A stretch of 64,000 nt of DNA from Rheinheimera sp. SA_1. GTDB taxonomy: Bacteria; Pseudomonadota; Gammaproteobacteria; Enterobacterales; Alteromonadaceae. The stretch is taken from the NCBI RefSeq assembly GCF_001669775.1, contig NZ_LXWK01000015.1, positions 1 to 64,000 on the forward strand, written 5' to 3'. Both the position numbers and the translations under genes were made by a program. Position 1 is the stretch's first letter, and every line of letters starts with the position of its first letter. Positions 4,711 to 63,409 of the stretch are shown here, one piece after another. Under the pieces are notes generated by a model, which saw nothing but the letters and a program-made list of their open reading frames with translations, made no database searches and was not told the origin of the DNA.

Positions 4711-4919
4711 TCAAAAGCCGGATAGCAAAAGCCGGACACCCACCCATTTCTAGAAACAGAGAAACTGGAAAAGCGTCAAAAGCCAGAGAAACTGGACACC
4801 CACCAACTGAGAAACCGGAGAAACCAGACACCCACAAATTTCTTTAAAGAGAAACTGGACACCCACCAACTGAGAAACCGGAGAAACCGGAGAAACCAGA
4901 CACCCACAAATTTCTTTAA
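4708..4919 (-). repeat. RAYT-linked REP-like tandem repeat block
   Basis: The block is built from GGTGGGTGTC plus TTTCTC / GGCTTTTGACGC motifs (minus-strand reading). GCGTCAAAAGCC occurs at 4708 and again at 4773. A 63-bp unit (4785-4847) is followed by a 72-bp near copy (4848-4919) that differs mainly by one extra 9-bp GGAGAAACC step; this step itself is iterated two and three times. The block sits directly upstream of a RAYT gene, and such transposases are known to be associated with REP/BIME repeats starting with GTGGG-like motifs. Confidence 0.75.
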
Positions 4920-20600: not shown

Positions 20601-20905
20601 GCTGATGATCCAACTGAGTGAAAAGTGCTCCAACATAACAAAGCATTGACAATTCCTACAGCCGCCGATGGGCAAAACTCGTTCAACGGCAGGGATTTAA
20701 CGTTTAAATTCTGCGCACAGTGCAACATTCAGCCGAAAAAAAGGGGCCGCTACTGCGACCCGAAAAGGTTGGGAACTGTATTGCTGCCAAATGCGAACAC
20801 AGGTTCAATCCAACTTTACTGCGATTTAGCATCCGCGGCGGTTAAAAACACCGCCGGTTTAAAAATCATCGATTTAAAAAGCTATTGAATTAAAAAGCCA
20901 TCGAT
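20601..20905. other. 305-bp spacer with short duplications
   Basis: This is the spacer between the tricorn protease gene and htpX, both on the minus strand. A GGCGGT/ACCGCC hairpin (about 20837-20856) lacks a T-tract. From 20861 to 20908 the motif ATCGATTTAAAA / TTGAATTAAAAAGC recurs three times and runs into the htpX stop codon. An open frame on the plus strand (20625-20888) has no ribosome-binding site or recognisable protein character. Confidence 0.5.
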
Positions 20906-51951: not shown

Positions 51952-52004
51952 GTGCGCCGGATGTTTTGATAACCTTCTGCTACTGCTACACAAAGGAAAT
52001 GCTG

Positions 52005-52520
52005 GTGAAAATATATACAGGTCTTGTTGTGGCCGGATTAATGATCAGCGGTTGTCATGCGCAGCCACCACAAACACAATTTCCTGAAAAGTTTGAACTG
52101 GTGCAGCTTCGCATTGGCTCTTCAGTCCAACAAGTGCAGCTTGCCGATACTGAAGCGAAAAGACGCCAAGGCTTGATGGGACAAATTCCGCTGCAACACG
52201 GCATGCTGTTGTTACATCAGACACCCAAACGGATGGTGTTGTGGATGAAAAACACCCCCAGCGCGCTGGACGTGGCCTTTATTGACGCCAAGTGGAACAT
52301 CGTCGGCATGACCCAGATGCAGCCATTTAGTGAAGATTTACATGAATCACCGGGACCGGTGTTAGGTGCGCTGGAAATGCCTCTAGGCTGGTTTGCTAAA
52401 GCGAATATCGCAGTTGGCCAACAACTCAGTATATGTAAAGACGATTGCGTACCCGTAGCTAAACCCAAAATCATTGAAGATGCAGGTAGGCGACAAGTGA
52501 GCGAGACCCCAGGAGCATAG
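52005..52520 (+). CDS. DUF192 lipoprotein
   Basis: 171 residues from GTG 52005, chosen because AAAGGA lies eight bases upstream; ATG 51999 is only one base after that site. Signal MKIYTGLVVAGLMISGC with lipidated Cys, then the DUF192 domain (RRQGLMGQIPLQHGMLLL, MVLWMKNTPSALDVAFID, SPGPVLGALEMPLGWF). Function of the family is unknown. Its C-terminal end, roughly from KPKIIEDAG to ETPGA-stop, is encoded by copy A of the 121-bp repeat (52463-52583), suggesting that repeat insertion replaced the original end. Confidence 0.8.
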   Translation: MKIYTGLVVAGLMISGCHAQPPQTQFPEKFELVQLRIGSSVQQVQLADTEAKRRQGLMGQIPLQHGMLLLHQTPKRMVLWMKNTPSALDVAFIDAKWNIVGMTQMQPFSEDLHESPGPVLGALEMPLGWFAKANIAVGQQLSICKDDCVPVAKPKIIEDAGRRQVSETPGA

Positions 52521-52583
52521 TTGTCCTATGTGACTGGGGCGAGCGAGCGAAGGCAACAACCCTGCAACTTCAAGGATGAAGGG
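52463..52583 (+). repeat. 121-bp palindromic dispersed repeat, copy A
   Basis: About 85% identical (18 mismatches in 121 by hand count, no gaps) to copy B at 60957-61077 in the opposite direction. Outer arms 52470-52486 and 52561-52577 pair at 15 of 17 positions; the inner hairpin CCCCAG-GAG-CATAG / CTATG-TGA-CTGGGG lies at 52507-52539. It fills the whole space between the convergent DUF192 and DUF2960 genes, starting inside the DUF192 reading frame and ending one base before the DUF2960 stop codon. Confidence 0.9.
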
Positions 52584-52835
52584 TTAGATATCTTTGTCGT
52601 CTTTATGCAGGAAAATCTCGGTAAACCCAAACCGGATAAACTCTTTTTGGCGGAAATCTTTAATTGCAGCAGTACGTTTTGCGGTCATAGCCACTTGCTG
52701 CTCCATTTTTAGAAACTGCGTTAGATCAATACCTTCAGCTGCGGCAACTGCTTCATAAATATCATGATACTTGTCGTAGCTAAACGGGATCTGCCGTGGC
52801 TGGCCTTTAAATTTATAGGTAATAGCACGCGCCAT
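52584..52835 (-). CDS. DUF2960 family protein
   Basis: 83 residues. ARAITYKFKGQPRQIPFSYDK-type start and FRQKEFIRFGFTEIFLHKDD match the small DUF2960 family of Alteromonadales and Vibrio, function unknown. Its ATG overlaps the stop of the acyltransferase gene by one base (TGATG), so both are co-translated. Its stop codon directly abuts repeat copy A. Confidence 0.8.
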   Translation of the reverse strand: MARAITYKFKGQPRQIPFSYDKYHDIYEAVAAAEGIDLTQFLKMEQQVAMTAKRTAAIKDFRQKEFIRFGFTEIFLHKDDKDI

Positions 52836-55885: not shown

Positions 55886-58800
55886 TTATTTAACGCTGTC
55901 GCAGTGGTGGCTTAACAACATCAGCTCACGCAGTGCCACGGAGAACTTGGCAAACTCGTGACTCTTGGTTGTTTTGAACTCAGCCAGCATAAGACTCCAG
56001 CGTGCCAACACCAGTTCGTTTGAGGTTAACCAACGACTGATCACCTCTTCCGCCTGGCATTGACCACCACAGGTTCTGACCACAACCTGGCTCAGCGCCC
56101 GTTGTTGCCAATCCAGCTCTTCGCGGTATGACGCGCGGGCCAGTGCCTGCCAGTGGTTGGTGACCGGCTGATGGGTAATTTGCTCCAGGAACCAGTGCAG
56201 ATCCAGCTTGTCGCCAAGCTTGAAGTAGATTTCTGCCACCAGCAGTAAATCAGTTTTTTCACTGTCAGCAACCTGCGCGATATCCATCACTGAGAACACC
56301 GTGCTTAACTGCGCCAGGTAACGGGCGACATCGGCTGGAATTTGCTGGGCGGTCAGTTTGTCCTGGTGCGCCTGCAATGACTCGGCTTCATTCGCAGCTA
56401 ATAAACGCGGTAATTCAGCGGCAATTTGCTGGTAAGCCGGTTTAAAGAACGCGACCGATTGCTCAATACCCAGCGCTTTATTGCGATGACGCAAGAACCA
56501 GCGAGTGGCGCGGCGCATGGTGCGACGCAGCTGGAACAATAACCGCGTTTGCAGCTCTGCCGGTATGGTGGTGTCTAATTCTTCCAGCTTGTGCCAGATG
56601 ATCTCAACATCAAACAAGTCACGCGCAATGGCATAACAAATCGCAACTTCAGAGACCGTCGAACCGGTTTCTTCCATCATCCGCTGGGCGAAGTTAGCGC
56701 CCATATCATTCACCAGCATATTGGCCAGTTTGGTGGCAATAATTTCGGCTTTCAGCGGATGGTTTTCCATCTCTTTGGCGTACTTGTCTTGCAGCACTTG
56801 TGGGAAAGCCTGGAACAACTCTTGTTTAAAGTAATTGTTCTCATAGATTTCCGGCAGCACCAGCTGTTCTTTCAACACCATCTTGCCATAGGCGGTCAGA
56901 ATGGCCAGTTCAGGACGGGTCAGACCCGCGCCTTTGACCATCCGCTCAGCTAATGCATCATCAGATGGCAGGAATTCCAGCTCGCGGTTCAGCTTGCCGT
57001 CTTTTTCCAGCGCGTGAATAAAGCGCGTGTATTCCTTCATCTGCTCGGCGCCGAGCAACGAAGATACTGAAATACTTTGCGTCTGACGGTAACAGTCGTT
57101 GATCACGATATCAGCGACATCGTTGGTCATGCTGTACAGCAATTCGTTGCGTTGTTTCAGCGTTAAATCACCACTGGCAACCAAAGCGTTCAGCAGAATT
57201 TTGATGTTCACTTCGTTATCCGAACAATCCACACCACCAACGTTGTCGATAAAGTCGGTATTGATCCGGCCACCGTTGCTGGCATATTCAATCCGGCCAC
57301 GTTGAGTAGTCCCTAAGTTACCACCCTCGCCGATGATCTTCGCTTTGACTTCTTTTCCATTGACCCGCAGTGGTTCAGAAGCGCGATCGCCAACTTCGGC
57401 ATGCGATTCATCGGTTGCTTTGACGTAAGTACCGATACCACCGTTCCAAATCAGGTCGACTTCCATCATCAGCGCCGCACGAATAAGTTCGTTCGGCGTT
57501 AAGGTGGTTTTGTCAGTGCCCAGCATTTGTTGCATTTGCGGGCTTAACTTAATAGCTTTAGCGCTACGCAGGAAAATACCACCGCCTTCAGAAATAAGCT
57601 CGCGGTTGTAATCATCCCAGGTGGAGTTTGGCAGTTTAAATAACCGGTCACGTTCCACAAACGATGTTGCTGACACCGGATTAGGATCCACAAAAATGTG
57701 CATGTGGTTAAAAGCAACCTGCAGGCGGATATGTTCAGACAACAGCATGCCGTTACCAAACACGTCACCGGCCATATCGCCGATCCCAACCACGGTAAAA
57801 TCAGTGCTTTGACAATCGATACCCACTTCTCGGAAGTGGCGTTTCACCGATTCCCAGCCGCCACGTGCGGTAATGCCCATGCCTTTGTGGTCGTAACCGT
57901 TCGAGCCACCTGAGGCAAAAGCGTCACCTAACCAGTGGTTGTATTCCAGCGAAATACCGTTGGCGATATCAGAGAACGTTGCGGTGCCTTTGTCGGCTGC
58001 AACTACTAAGTACGGGTCGTCTTCATCCAGGCGCACCACGTTTTTCGGCGGTACAATCTGGCCTAATACGATGTTGTCAGTGATATCCAACAGCGCGCGG
58101 ATAAAGGTACGGTAACAGGCTTTACCTTCGTTGAGCCAGGCTTCGCGGCCACCGGTTTCCGGTAGTTTTTTACAAACAAAACCACCTTTGGCGCCAACCG
58201 GCACAATCACAGTGTTTTTCACTTGTTGCGCTTTGACCAGACCCAGCACTTCGGTGCGGAAATCTTCGCGGCGATCTGACCAGCGCAGACCACCACGGGC
58301 TACTTTACCAAAACGTAAATGCACACCTTCGACTTTTGGCGAGTACACAAAAATCTCGAAGAATGGCAATGGCAATGGCATATCCGGGATCATCGCCGGA
58401 CGGACTTTAAACGAAATATACGGCTTGTCGCTGCCATCTTCGGCAGTTTGGAAATAGTTGGTACGGACAATCGCCTGAATAATGGCCAGGAAACGACGGA
58501 TGATCCGGTCGTCATCAAGGTTGGCCACGTTTTCCAGCTGCGCCAGAATCTCAGTTTCCAATTGTTCTGCAACTGCAGCATCGGCATTATCCAAAGCGAA
58601 TTTGCTGTTAAACAGCTGCACCAATAAACCCGCTAATACCGGGTAACGGCCAAAAGTCGATTCGATATAAGCCTGGCTAAAGGTCCCGCCGATTTGCCGT
58701 TTGTATTTGGCAAAAGAGCGCAATAACGACGCTTCACGGCCAGTTAAACCAGCGCCTAAAATCAGTCGGTTAAAACCGTCATCTTCTAAATCGCCTTTCC

Positions 58801-60721
58801 AGACTTTGGCAAAAGATTCCTGGAACAACTGCTGCGCCGCTTCAAAATCCAGTGGCACTTTGCCGTTCAGTTCCATGCTGAAGTTTAAGATCCAGCTGAC
58901 TGAACCGTCCGGGCAACGCACAGCATAAGGCGTTTCACCAATCACCCGCAGACCGAAGTTTTCCAGCATTGGTAATACGTCGGACAAATGAATTGGGTGG
59001 TCTTTATGGAACAGGTTTAACCGCACCGCTTTGGAATCGTCTTTCTCTTCCTGAGGCCGGTAGAACAGCATTTCCAAAGTGTTGTCTTCGGTCAGCGCTT
59101 CCAGTTTGGCAATATCCACCAGCGCATCGTTTGGCAACATTTCTTCTTTGTAAGAGCGCGGGAAAGCGTTGATATATTTCAGGCCAAGCTCACGACCAGT
59201 CAGCTCTCCGAAGCGGCCGATTAAGGCGCTTGCCAGCTTATCTTCCCAGGTGCGGGCAGCTTCAATTAAATTATTTTCGATGTCTTTCACATTGAACTCG
59301 ATATTGCTGTCGTTGATCCGGACAAAATAATGGGTCCGGGCCAGCATGGATTCAGAGAAATAAGTGGTAAATTCCACCGGCTCGGTACTGCCTAAGAAAC
59401 TTTGCAGGATATTCTGAGTTTCTTTGCGCAACTGCGTGTTATAACGCTCACGTGGCACATACACCATGGCCGAAACAAACCGACCAAAGGCATCTTTACG
59501 CATAAAGACCCGGGTCATGTCCCGTTCCTGCATTTGCAGCACGCCGGTCGAAATATCTAACAGTTCGTCGGCTTCAGCCTGAATAAGCTCATCACGTGGA
59601 TAAGTTTCCAGAATATTCAGCAGCGCTTTGTAAGCGTGGGTGCCAACGGCAAAACCAGAAGCTGCCATCACTTTAGAAAGTTTGTTTTTCAGCAGTGGAA
59701 TATCACCGGCACTGTTGTTATACAGCGATGATGAATACAAACCGATGAAACGATCCTCACCCACCACATGACCTTCAGCGTCAAAGCGCTTGATCCCGAT
59801 ATAATCAATATAAGCCGGGCGATGTACCCGGGATTTATTATTGGTTTTAGTCAGGATCAAAGAACCGGTGCTCAGCGCTTGTTTGCGCGCAACATCAGGT
59901 AAATCTGACAACATTAAATCGCGGGAAACGCTACGGCGCATTAGCCCTAAAGCGGTATCGGCCATGCCTTCGATGCGGTAGTCACCCTGCACCGGCACAA
60001 TGCTGTATTGCCGGTAGCCGAGCAGCGTAAAGTTATCCTTGGCCAGCCACTTTAAAAACTCAGTGGTTTCTGCCAGTTGCTCTGGCGTTGCTTTACCGCT
60101 GTTGGCTGGTAATTCTGCAATCACCTGCTCCAGCTTGGCTTTGGTAGGTTTCCAGTCCTCAACCGCCAGTTTCACGTCCTGCATTACTGAATCAAGTTCA
60201 GCAATCAGGTGATCCATGGTGGTTTTGTCAGTCATCCGGTCGATTTCGATATGAAAGACCGTTTGCTGAGTCGAAGGATTTTGCTTAGTGCCGAGTTTAT
60301 GGAATTCAGTGATATCGCCTTTAGCATCGCGGAATGTCTGCAGTGGATAATGCAGCAGTAAATGCGCGGTGATGTTGTGGCGGTTTAAGGCGATCCGGAC
60401 TGAATCCACCAGAAACGGCATATCCTTCACCACGATTTCGACAATAGTGTGTTTTGATTCCCAACCGTGACGGGCGATTTCCGGGTTAAACACACGAATT
60501 TTTGCGCTGTCATCAGCATGGGTATTAAAGGTTTGCCACAGACTTAACGCAGCACCATATAAATCGCTGTCGTTACGGCCGAACATATCTTCGTTGGCAA
60601 CATTGCCATAGAGAGTGAAAGCAAATTTCTCAACCTGTTCAACCTGATCTTTTACTTTTTGTTTGATGAGTTTACTTACGTTTTGTAGAAGTACAGATGG
60701 TTGACCGTCTATCAGTGCCAT
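55886..60721 (-). CDS. gdhB: NAD-specific glutamate dehydrogenase, 180-kDa type
   Basis: 1611 residues, the size of the large GDH family (COG2902; Pseudomonas GdhB). N-terminal regulatory half with ACT-like parts (TIVEIVVKDMPFLVDSVRIA), then the catalytic core with FGKVARGGLRWSDRREDF, VIVPVGAKGGFVCKK (substrate lysines) and the Rossmann part with GIGDMAGDVFGNGML and KIIGEGGNLGTTQRGRIE. Converts glutamate to 2-oxoglutarate and ammonia, linking with Lrp/alanine metabolism. AAGGAT precedes the ATG. Stands alone with its own terminator; 178 bp upstream carry the promoter and a CTGGT-TGT-ACCAG palindrome (near 60847). Confidence 0.93.
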   Translation of the reverse strand: MALIDGQPSVLLQNVSKLIKQKVKDQVEQVEKFAFTLYGNVANEDMFGRNDSDLYGAALSLWQTFNTHADDSAKIRVFNPEIARHGWESKHTIVEIVVKDMPFLVDSVRIALNRHNITAHLLLHYPLQTFRDAKGDITEFHKLGTKQNPSTQQTVFHIEIDRMTDKTTMDHLIAELDSVMQDVKLAVEDWKPTKAKLEQVIAELPANSGKATPEQLAETTEFLKWLAKDNFTLLGYRQYSIVPVQGDYRIEGMADTALGLMRRSVSRDLMLSDLPDVARKQALSTGSLILTKTNNKSRVHRPAYIDYIGIKRFDAEGHVVGEDRFIGLYSSSLYNNSAGDIPLLKNKLSKVMAASGFAVGTHAYKALLNILETYPRDELIQAEADELLDISTGVLQMQERDMTRVFMRKDAFGRFVSAMVYVPRERYNTQLRKETQNILQSFLGSTEPVEFTTYFSESMLARTHYFVRINDSNIEFNVKDIENNLIEAARTWEDKLASALIGRFGELTGRELGLKYINAFPRSYKEEMLPNDALVDIAKLEALTEDNTLEMLFYRPQEEKDDSKAVRLNLFHKDHPIHLSDVLPMLENFGLRVIGETPYAVRCPDGSVSWILNFSMELNGKVPLDFEAAQQLFQESFAKVWKGDLEDDGFNRLILGAGLTGREASLLRSFAKYKRQIGGTFSQAYIESTFGRYPVLAGLLVQLFNSKFALDNADAAVAEQLETEILAQLENVANLDDDRIIRRFLAIIQAIVRTNYFQTAEDGSDKPYISFKVRPAMIPDMPLPLPFFEIFVYSPKVEGVHLRFGKVARGGLRWSDRREDFRTEVLGLVKAQQVKNTVIVPVGAKGGFVCKKLPETGGREAWLNEGKACYRTFIRALLDITDNIVLGQIVPPKNVVRLDEDDPYLVVAADKGTATFSDIANGISLEYNHWLGDAFASGGSNGYDHKGMGITARGGWESVKRHFREVGIDCQSTDFTVVGIGDMAGDVFGNGMLLSEHIRLQVAFNHMHIFVDPNPVSATSFVERDRLFKLPNSTWDDYNRELISEGGGIFLRSAKAIKLSPQMQQMLGTDKTTLTPNELIRAALMMEVDLIWNGGIGTYVKATDESHAEVGDRASEPLRVNGKEVKAKIIGEGGNLGTTQRGRIEYASNGGRINTDFIDNVGGVDCSDNEVNIKILLNALVASGDLTLKQRNELLYSMTNDVADIVINDCYRQTQSISVSSLLGAEQMKEYTRFIHALEKDGKLNRELEFLPSDDALAERMVKGAGLTRPELAILTAYGKMVLKEQLVLPEIYENNYFKQELFQAFPQVLQDKYAKEMENHPLKAEIIATKLANMLVNDMGANFAQRMMEETGSTVSEVAICYAIARDLFDVEIIWHKLEELDTTIPAELQTRLLFQLRRTMRRATRWFLRHRNKALGIEQSVAFFKPAYQQIAAELPRLLAANEAESLQAHQDKLTAQQIPADVARYLAQLSTVFSVMDIAQVADSEKTDLLLVAEIYFKLGDKLDLHWFLEQITHQPVTNHWQALARASYREELDWQQRALSQVVVRTCGGQCQAEEVISRWLTSNELVLARWSLMLAEFKTTKSHEFAKFSVALRELMLLSHHCDSVK

Positions 60722-60926: not shown

Positions 60927-60956
60927 CATTAGATTAATTGCATAAACATGCGATTC

Positions 60957-61077
60957 CCCTTCATCCTTAAAATTGCAGGGTTGTTGGCCGCTTTCTCTCA
61001 CCCCAGTCACATAGAACAGCTATGCTCCTGGGGATTCGTTCAATTGCCGCCTACCTGCAACTTTAATGATTTTGGGT
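60957..61077 (-). repeat. 121-bp palindromic dispersed repeat, copy B
   Basis: Inverted relative to copy A. Reads in the same direction as the transporter gene and begins 13 bp after that gene's stop codon. The outer arms pair at 15 of 17 positions plus one G-U. Compared with copy A, one G-C pair is replaced by A-U (both sides changed), one mismatch is repaired and one C-to-T keeps a wobble pair. Confidence 0.9.
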
Positions 61078-61090
61078 AATTACTTAACCA

Positions 61091-63409
61091 TTATCGGTTT
61101 TTACGCCAAAAGAATGCCGCCAATGCTGGTAATACAAACACCGCACCCAGCATATTGACGATAAACATAAAGGTCAGCAGGATGCCCATATCGACCTGGA
61201 ACTTCAGCGCCGAGAATACCCAGGTACTGACGCCAATCGCCAAGGTGATTGCCGTAAACAGCACCGCACTGCCGGTTGATTTCAGCGCATTGTAATATGC
61301 TTCCCGTAACGGCATACCATCACGCAGCGGTTGCGTCATATTGGTCAGGATATAAATTCCATAATCCACACCGATACCCACACCCAGTGCAATCACTGGC
61401 AAGGTCGATACGGTCAGACCAATGCCGAGCAACGTCATTAAGGCCGTTGCCAATACAGTCACCAAATACAACGGCAGGATCACCGCGACGGTCGCCCGCA
61501 CCGAACGGAAACTGATTAAACACAATAAGATCACTGCGCCATACACATACAAGGTCATTGGATCTTGTGCTGCTGCCACCGCTTCATTGGTGGCGGCCAT
61601 CACGCCAACCGGACCGGATGCCAGCATAAATTTGGTGGTGTCGGTCCCCAGCTCAGCGCCGACTTTTTTCGCTTCGGCGATGACTTTTTCGATGGTCTCG
61701 GCTTTGTGGTCGTTTAAGAACAAAATAACCGGCATCACCGAACAATCGCCATTGAGCAAACCGGTACTGGTTTCAACGCGCGACGAAGATTGCACCAGCG
61801 ATTCGGTGGTCCGTGGCAAAATGCGCCATTTCACGTTGCCTTCGTTAAAAGCAGCGTTGATGGTTTTTGACACTGAAGGCAAGGACACCGCACTTTGCAC
61901 GCCCGGCACGTTTTCCATCCGCCACTGGAACTGGTCAATCTTGTCCATGATCGGGTGGAAGGTACAGCCGTTGGCATCGGTTTCTACCATCACATTGATA
62001 TAGTCAACGGAAATAGCGTAGCGGTCGGTAATTAAGAAAGTGTCCTGGTTATAACGGGAATCTTCATGTAAAGACGAAGCACCCGGTTGCAGATCACCAA
62101 TTTTCAGCTGTTTGCTTTGATAATAACCACCGGCAAATAAGGCGGCTGATATCAGCAGGATCACTGCAGCGACTTTCGGCTCAGCACTGGCCGACAACGC
62201 CCGCCAGAATTTATCCGCTTTTGGTGTTGGAGCCGAAACCGCCTCAACATACGAAGGTTTAAAACGTACAAAGGACATCAGCACCGGTAATAAGAACAAG
62301 TTGGTCAGAATAATCACGCCCACACCCAAACTTGCGGTGATCGCCAATTCGCGGATCACCCCAATCTCGATGATTAACAAGGTGATAAAACCAACAGTGT
62401 CCGACAATAACGCCACGCCGCCCGGGATCATTAAATGACGGAAGCTGGCCTGCGCAGCCGTTTTGGCGTCAAGACCAGCGGCTACGTTTTTGCCGGTAGC
62501 GTTGATCATCTGCACACCATGGCTCACGCCAATCGCAAACACTAAAAACGGTACCAGAATCGACATCGGATCAATGCCAAAACCGAGCACTGTTAATAAT
62601 CCCATCTGCCAGATCACCGCAATCAGTGAACAGGCAATAGGTAATATTGTCAGGGTTACAGATTTGGAGAACAGGTAGACCATCACCGCCGTAATGGCGA
62701 TAGCCACCGCGAAAAACGCCAGTACGCCTTTAGCACCATTTGCTACATCGCCGACCATTTTGGCAAAGCCGATGATATGCACTGAAATTTGTTCGTTTTC
62801 ATACTGGCCACGGACATCGTTTTCCAATTGATTGGCAAAAGCGATGGTGTCGAGCTTTTCATTGGTATCCGGATTAATTTCCTGCAACTGCGCCGTGACC
62901 ATAGCGCAGCTGTAATCGTCTGCAACCATCCGACCAACAATACCGGCTTTGTCGACATTCTGCTTAACGATGGCCAGGCCATTGGCATCGGCGGCAAAGT
63001 CAGCCGGGATCACCGGGCCACCGGCAAAACCGTCTTCCACCACTTCGACAAAACGGGTGCTTGGGCTAAACAAGGATTTCACTAACACCCGATCCACCCC
63101 TGGCATGTAATACACCTGGTCATGGATTTTCTTGAAGGTATCGAAAAACTGCGGGTTAAAAATATTGCCAGAGGCGTCACACACCGAAATCAGAATATTG
63201 TTAGCGCCGCCAAAATCTTTGGCGTGCTTTAAATAGGTCTGCATATATTCGTGTTTTAACGGAATATTTTTGGTAAAAGCTGCGTCGAGTTTAATCTGGC
63301 TGGCTTTAAACAATAAAAATAACGTCATGGCGACAAACGCCAGGATCACAAAACCGCGGTGACGAAACAGCGCATATTCGCACTTATTAATAAAACGACT
63401 GGTACTCAT
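61091..63409 (-). CDS. RND/MMPL-family exporter
   Basis: 772 residues, two homologous halves each with one membrane helix, a large periplasmic loop and five helices (HRGFVILAFVAMTLFLLF at the start; LAFFAVAIAITAVMVYLF; LPLYLVTVLATALMTLLGIGL; VLFTAITLAIGVSTWVF). Conserved GxxxD motif as IALGVGIGVDYGIYILTN and FAIGVSHGVQMINA. COG1033-type RND exporters move hydrophobic compounds by proton energy. The start overlaps the stop of the partner gene (ATGA), forming an operon. Substrate unknown. Confidence 0.88.
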   Translation of the reverse strand: MSTSRFINKCEYALFRHRGFVILAFVAMTLFLLFKASQIKLDAAFTKNIPLKHEYMQTYLKHAKDFGGANNILISVCDASGNIFNPQFFDTFKKIHDQVYYMPGVDRVLVKSLFSPSTRFVEVVEDGFAGGPVIPADFAADANGLAIVKQNVDKAGIVGRMVADDYSCAMVTAQLQEINPDTNEKLDTIAFANQLENDVRGQYENEQISVHIIGFAKMVGDVANGAKGVLAFFAVAIAITAVMVYLFSKSVTLTILPIACSLIAVIWQMGLLTVLGFGIDPMSILVPFLVFAIGVSHGVQMINATGKNVAAGLDAKTAAQASFRHLMIPGGVALLSDTVGFITLLIIEIGVIRELAITASLGVGVIILTNLFLLPVLMSFVRFKPSYVEAVSAPTPKADKFWRALSASAEPKVAAVILLISAALFAGGYYQSKQLKIGDLQPGASSLHEDSRYNQDTFLITDRYAISVDYINVMVETDANGCTFHPIMDKIDQFQWRMENVPGVQSAVSLPSVSKTINAAFNEGNVKWRILPRTTESLVQSSSRVETSTGLLNGDCSVMPVILFLNDHKAETIEKVIAEAKKVGAELGTDTTKFMLASGPVGVMAATNEAVAAAQDPMTLYVYGAVILLCLISFRSVRATVAVILPLYLVTVLATALMTLLGIGLTVSTLPVIALGVGIGVDYGIYILTNMTQPLRDGMPLREAYYNALKSTGSAVLFTAITLAIGVSTWVFSALKFQVDMGILLTFMFIVNMLGAVFVLPALAAFFWRKNR

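Follow-up and report, generated by a model that had tools for sequence, protein, structure and literature searches.

Two similar sequences, each able to fold into a long hairpin, lie in inverted orientation in a 64,000-nucleotide stretch of the Rheinheimera sp. SA_1 genome (contig NZ_LXWK01000015.1, positions 1 to 64,000; hereafter the window), and they raise the question of what this repeat is, how it came to be there and whether its fold is of any use to the cell. A repeat search recovered them at 52463-52583 and 60957-61077, equal in length (121 nt) and 85% complementary, as a preliminary description made from the sequence alone had reported. At full length, copy 1 occupies 52460-52587 on the + strand and copy 2 occupies 60953-61080 on the - strand; each is 128 nt long with degenerate ends (TAAACCC...GGGTTAG and ATTACCC...GGGGAAT), and they score 149.5 and 140.1 bits, respectively, against R1, a covariance model built from 36 copies of the element in this genome. 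The left outer arm of copy 1 (52470-52486; columns 11-27 of our alignment A1) pairs with the right outer arm (52561-52577; columns 102-118) at 15 of 17 positions to form helix 2, the mismatches falling at columns 14 and 21. Alignment and covariation place the inner hairpin at 52507-52520 (columns 48-61) and 52526-52539 (columns 67-80); it contains a GA/GA internal loop, invariant in A1, with its left GA step at columns 54-55. Other differences between the copies were also as previously described: a G-C pair becomes A-U by change on both sides (column 17), an A.A mismatch becomes a U-A pair (column 21), a G-C pair becomes G.U (column 20), and the inner stem is conserved while its loop varies (TTGTC versus CTGTT). 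For copy 1, the fold of the + strand has an energy of -53.1 kcal/mol (z -7.0), and the same element strand of copy 2 has a z of -5.6, neither equalled by any of 200 shuffles; the opposite strands fold more weakly relative to their own shuffles (z -3.7, equalled by 1/200, for copy 1; z -4.1, 0/200, for copy 2). Elsewhere in the window, two 44-nt direct copies (98% alike, spaced 63 nt) lie at 4785-4900 inside an internally repeated stretch, and an AT-rich 42-nt inverted repeat pair (2295-2336 and 20840-20881, 76% complementary) has 18.5 kb between its members.

Comparison with described repeats answers the first part of the question. Using the 127-nt E. coli ERIC consensus as given in Table 1a of PMC2759123, full-length alignment yielded 93 identical columns of 128 for copy 1 and 94 of 128 for copy 2, with scores of 55 and 57 against best values of -12 and -14 among 500 shuffles; the opposite strands reached 67/129 and 69/132. 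By this comparison both sequences are ERIC elements (IRU/RU-1), and sequence support for membership is as good as it could be. The proposal that the repeat belongs to no named Rfam or IS family was thus wrong in substance, since it matches a family already described and credited, in the account of PMC2229807, to papers of 1990 and 1991. The core of the window copies is similar to the ERIC-PCR primers given in PMC3359277, and the long hairpin expected of ERIC is evident both in the folds of the window copies and in an alignment of 49 copies in which 96.0% of cells are paired.

Scanned against Rfam at the gathering threshold, the window returned tRNA alone and no match at the repeat. At an E-value threshold, RF02818 V_AS5 matched copy 1 (window 52459-52580, model positions 1-129) with 45.2 bits and E 5e-9; the default scan is silent on this copy because its score lies below the curated cut-off of 96 bits. 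Copy 2 (locus L037) scores 50.0 bits, so that neither window copy reaches the cut-off. In all 16 of the ERIC-bearing loci scanned (L031, L037, L124, L258-L263, L266, L271, L276, L278, L279, L281, and L285), V_AS5 matched the ERIC + strand, 15 of them below 96 bits and one just above at 96.1. We infer from these end-to-end matches that a copy of ERIC underlies the V_AS5 family. A match to CssrA (RF02798) in the window (16 bits, E 0.38) was judged to be due to chance.

To assess the abundance of the element, we searched this and related genomes with R1. The Rheinheimera sp. SA_1 genome holds at least 136 copies, a lower bound because 150 of 1827 candidates were scored; all are 51-189 nt long and carry no gene of their own. 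Matches were present in all 22 genomes of the genus examined (own included), at 6 to 144 per genome, and in at least 65 of 295 genomes of the order, covering at least 32 of 99 genera and 13 family labels (own included), in a survey that filtered more strictly and scored few candidates in each genome. The earlier suggestion that relatives may often contain similar sequence was therefore borne out. Within the family, plain blastn found matches in 12 of 118 genomes. With copy 1 as query, blastn matched 4156 of 5426 E. coli genomes, 35 of 72,556 plasmid records (Vibrio, Salmonella, Klebsiella, and Rahnella among them) and 10 of 50,697 phage-collection records, every one named Salmonella or Escherichia. 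A literature search for ERIC together with Rheinheimera, Shewanella or Alteromonadales found no account among the papers judged by listing. The work of Zo in 2011, reportedly on ERIC among Gammaproteobacteria, may already cover part of this wider host range.

Copies within the genome fall into length classes near 128, 143, 158, 174, and 188 nt, in addition to forms of 51-85 nt and a few others. Judged by eye, the steps reflect a module of 15-16 nt, present in the left arm and, as its reverse complement, once or twice in the right; a further step is due to a small hairpin, GGCCACGGTGGAACCGCGG, located in the outer part of the left arm. Some copies have modules in one arm, left or right, and others in both, so that several combinations are represented (for example, loci L183, L213, and L182).

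To examine whether pairing is maintained, as the earlier claim of a covarying hairpin implied, we aligned copies from this and other genomes. In A1, which consists of 40 BLAST-picked copies from this genome minus four with arm modules, both partners had changed in 19 of 35 pairs, a result matched by none of 500 shuffles, and 95.9% of cells pair, compared with 30-48% in slid controls. The 49 copies noted above came from 44 loci, each genome contributing a single locus; here two-sided changes affected 29 of 35 pairs, again matched by none of 500 shuffles, and the covariation claim held in both sets. The two strands of the element are not equivalent in this respect. Among 57 copies that BLAST selected with no structure model involved, the + strand has 100 G.U cells and 17 A.C cells; by column, 17 favor G.U, five favor A.C and three are tied (p 0.017). 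Pair 56:72 supplies 49 of the 100 G.U cells, and excluding it and seven terminal pairs leaves 43 G.U versus 11 A.C. The 127 own copies that remain when the nine of 51-85 nt are omitted from the 136 give 188 versus 58, with 96 of the 188 at pair 56:72. An alignment picked by covariance model (A2) gives 122 versus 7, but we rely on the BLAST-picked copies because the model itself favors G.U; in all of these counts the copies are related and hence not independent, which weakens the statistics. The excess of G.U over A.C points to the + strand as the one on which pairing appears to be maintained.

Joint change of paired positions may also arise by mutation, through template switching between the arms of a quasi-palindrome, with no need for selection on pairing, and the appearance of the 15-16 nt module in one arm, in the other as its reverse complement, or in both is what such copying would be expected to leave. 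We nevertheless regard a purely mutational origin of the covariation as unlikely. Copying between arms is expected to have no strand preference, yet G.U exceeds A.C; moreover, the G.U at pair 56:72 changes to A-U or G-C, with A.C in none of 122 cells among the 127 copies and none of 49 among the 49 copies.

The placement of copies relative to genes provides a second signal that distinguishes the strands. Gene calls came from a simple home-made, codon-scored caller trained on the window rather than from curated annotation. By these calls only five of 136 copies lie within predicted open reading frames, in keeping with the mostly intergenic position of ERIC. Where a copy lies between co-directional genes, its + strand runs with transcription in 65 of 80 cases and against it in 15 (p 1.4e-8), or in 64 versus 16 under a slightly altered rule; of the remaining copies in this genome, 25 lie between converging genes and 25 between diverging genes, and one could not be assigned. 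In the sister genome G121, 40 stretches (42 copies) representing the best-scoring of 117 matches gave 16 forward and 8 reverse, and 20 stretches (21 copies) taken from the family blastn matches in seven other genomes gave 10 and 5, both in the same direction and not significant. Replication direction as the source of the bias was rejected by eye, because + and - copies are intermixed along contigs. Together, the G.U excess and the orientation bias suggest that the + strand of the element matters as folded RNA.

The window copies illustrate how closely the element may adjoin genes. A DUF192 gene (51966-52520, + strand; Pfam PF02643 at residues 56-156) runs its frame into copy 1, so that its final 19 codons and TAG stop lie inside the element, whereas the relative L044 has no element at this place and a stop of its own; genes that likewise run into ERIC and stop within it have been described in enterobacteria (PMC2759123). 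On the other side, a DUF2960 gene (52584-52835, - strand) converges on copy 1, with its stop in the last bases of the element. An MMPL-family gene (61091-63409, - strand) ends 10 bp from copy 2 and is co-directional with it, and an NAD-glutamate dehydrogenase gene (55886-60721, - strand) lies downstream of that copy.

To investigate how copies reach such positions, we examined their termini and the corresponding sites in relatives. Copies in this genome are bounded by TATACCC and GGGTATA, the terminal inverted repeat of ERIC; of 40 copies examined, 24 have TA at each extreme end and 24 have TACCC...GGGTA ends. Both window copies are degenerate there, and a TA duplication is therefore unreadable from them. 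Five tandem pairs of elements in this genome overlap by two or four terminal bases, mostly TA or TATA and in one case GATG. Two insertions are missing from G121, where the flanks are present (85 and 88% identical) with TA at the junction. The flanks of these empty sites have diverged by 12-15%, one junction is off by a few bases, and at the hisH-hisA site the left flank beside the junction is not alike; with junction bases not fully alike, the two sites do not prove a TA duplication. When the flanks of the two insertions served to fetch loci from other members of the genus (20 genomes for one, 17 for the other), R1 found no match at either place; within this set, one locus (L366) ends before the junction, the loci for the second site mostly matched on one side, and another (L372) carries an ERIC copy elsewhere in the fetched stretch. 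Among orthologous loci fetched by means of the dehydrogenase gene, R1 found a single match (L054) in 80, site 1 of the window is empty in L044, and site 2 is empty in L044, L108, L055, and L043, the last three of which have an apparent short plain hairpin in place of the element. The preliminary description had offered structure under selection and palindromic mobile DNA as alternatives; covariation, G.U excess and empty sites support the two jointly.

We also sought longer elements with ERIC ends that may mobilize the shorter ones, and among the lone ends and the one transposase family (DDE_3) examined, no transposase with matching ends was found. The lone ends were 17 picked by eye among the first 100 matches listed for each end (of 151 left-end and 166 right-end matches), with approximately 8 kb fetched around each; eight or nine proved to be 31-32 bp half arms, and the others were truncated, tandem or degenerate copies. 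The sole DDE_3 (IS630-type) locus found in this genome (L422; contig C19, 2626-3053) is decayed, being in two pieces with an internal stop, and lacks TATACCC ends. The sequence beside it resembles further transposase remains.

Half arms of 31-32 bp with TATA-like sequence at both ends number at least 15 in this genome outside the 136 copies (including L241, L245, L247-L250, L252, and L257), although the match is weak for two or three of them and another two adjoin a full copy. Their ends were partly selected because the search patterns required TATA ends within three mismatches; the lone-end search, which did not require the inner end, still contained the eight or nine described above. It is conceivable, if somewhat unlikely, that the smallest mobile ERIC unit is the half arm, TATA-CCC...GGG-TATA, and that a transcribed hairpin joins two such units into a full ERIC. 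In that case CGGGTA and ACCCCG on the inner side of each arm would be cryptic ends recognized by the same TA-specific enzyme, full elements would be retained for their + strand RNA hairpin, and half arms would be by-products.

The same half arms, together with outer arms that are near-perfect inverted repeats ending in TATACCC, are also what would be seen if the arms were just two binding sites of one transposase, whose joint change mimics covariation in an element with no role as RNA. This explanation appears distinctly improbable, in that the inner hairpin, distant from the ends, also covaries (8 of 12 pairs in 49 copies), arm sequence varies within one genome (pair 25:104 is G-C in 80 and A-T in 43 of 127 copies), and the G.U excess is confined to one strand. 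A further reading, at which its Rfam homologue V_AS5, a Vibrio antisense RNA, and the apparent plain hairpin at site 2 in three relatives may hint, makes the element a gene of the host, for a regulatory RNA or a terminator, and not mobile DNA; this is very improbable indeed given its at least 136 dispersed copies in one genome, the element-free places in related genomes (at the two sites examined, positions are not common to the genus), the tandem copies with common terminal bases, and the lack of a T run 3' of the hairpin in both window copies.

Collectively, the genomic evidence favors, with a probability of about 0.8, the view that ERIC in this genome is a TA-inserting, non-autonomous, MITE-like mobile palindrome that is maintained, chiefly in intergenic positions, as an RNA hairpin. 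Palindromes bounded by TATACCC...GGGTATA would enter TA sites, with the TA probably duplicated at insertion and the DNA moved by a putative transposase acting in trans. Once inserted, they would be retained almost always intergenically, often near gene ends, where they may be transcribed with the genes. Within transcripts, the + strand would then fold as RNA, either at their end or in their spacer, and a role for this RNA would explain the one-strand signature. We liken such a role to the effect of ERIC in yersiniae, where reviews describe an orientation-dependent alteration of mRNA decay (PMC2229807; PMC10969869).

Several known systems resemble this element to different degrees. REP palindromes are ruled out by unit size and termini: they are described as units of 20-40 bp, most of them tagged by GTAG or CGTC at one end, whereas here the units are 128 nt with TATACCC ends. 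The RUP of Streptococcus pneumoniae, in the account of PMC2229807, is likewise small and gene-free with TA at its ends, and has been proposed to be mobilized in trans by an IS630 transposase; the likeness is one of description, and the sole IS630-type remnant found in Rheinheimera sp. SA_1 differs in having no TATACCC ends. V_AS5 matches end to end and on the same strand as ERIC +, but Rfam types it as a Vibrio antisense RNA gene and not as a repeat; RF02818 thus seems to be a mobile repeat entered in Rfam as an RNA gene. The closest likeness is to ERIC itself, in length (127-128), ends (TATACCC...GGGTATA), core (CCCCAGGAGC...GTGACTGGGG), long hairpin and mostly intergenic position, and what had been an unnamed structured repeat is now a named one. 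It differs in its host, which lies outside the Enterobacteriaceae and Vibrionaceae, the two families named in a 2024 review (PMC10969869), so that the host range takes in Rheinheimera-type bacteria and 13 family labels of the order. It may differ further in that Rheinheimera sp. SA_1 also has arm-module forms of 140-189 nt and half arms of 31-32 bp, and with so many copies, in several length classes and alongside half arms, this one genome is good material for addressing which agent mobilizes ERIC and whether the hairpin serves as RNA.
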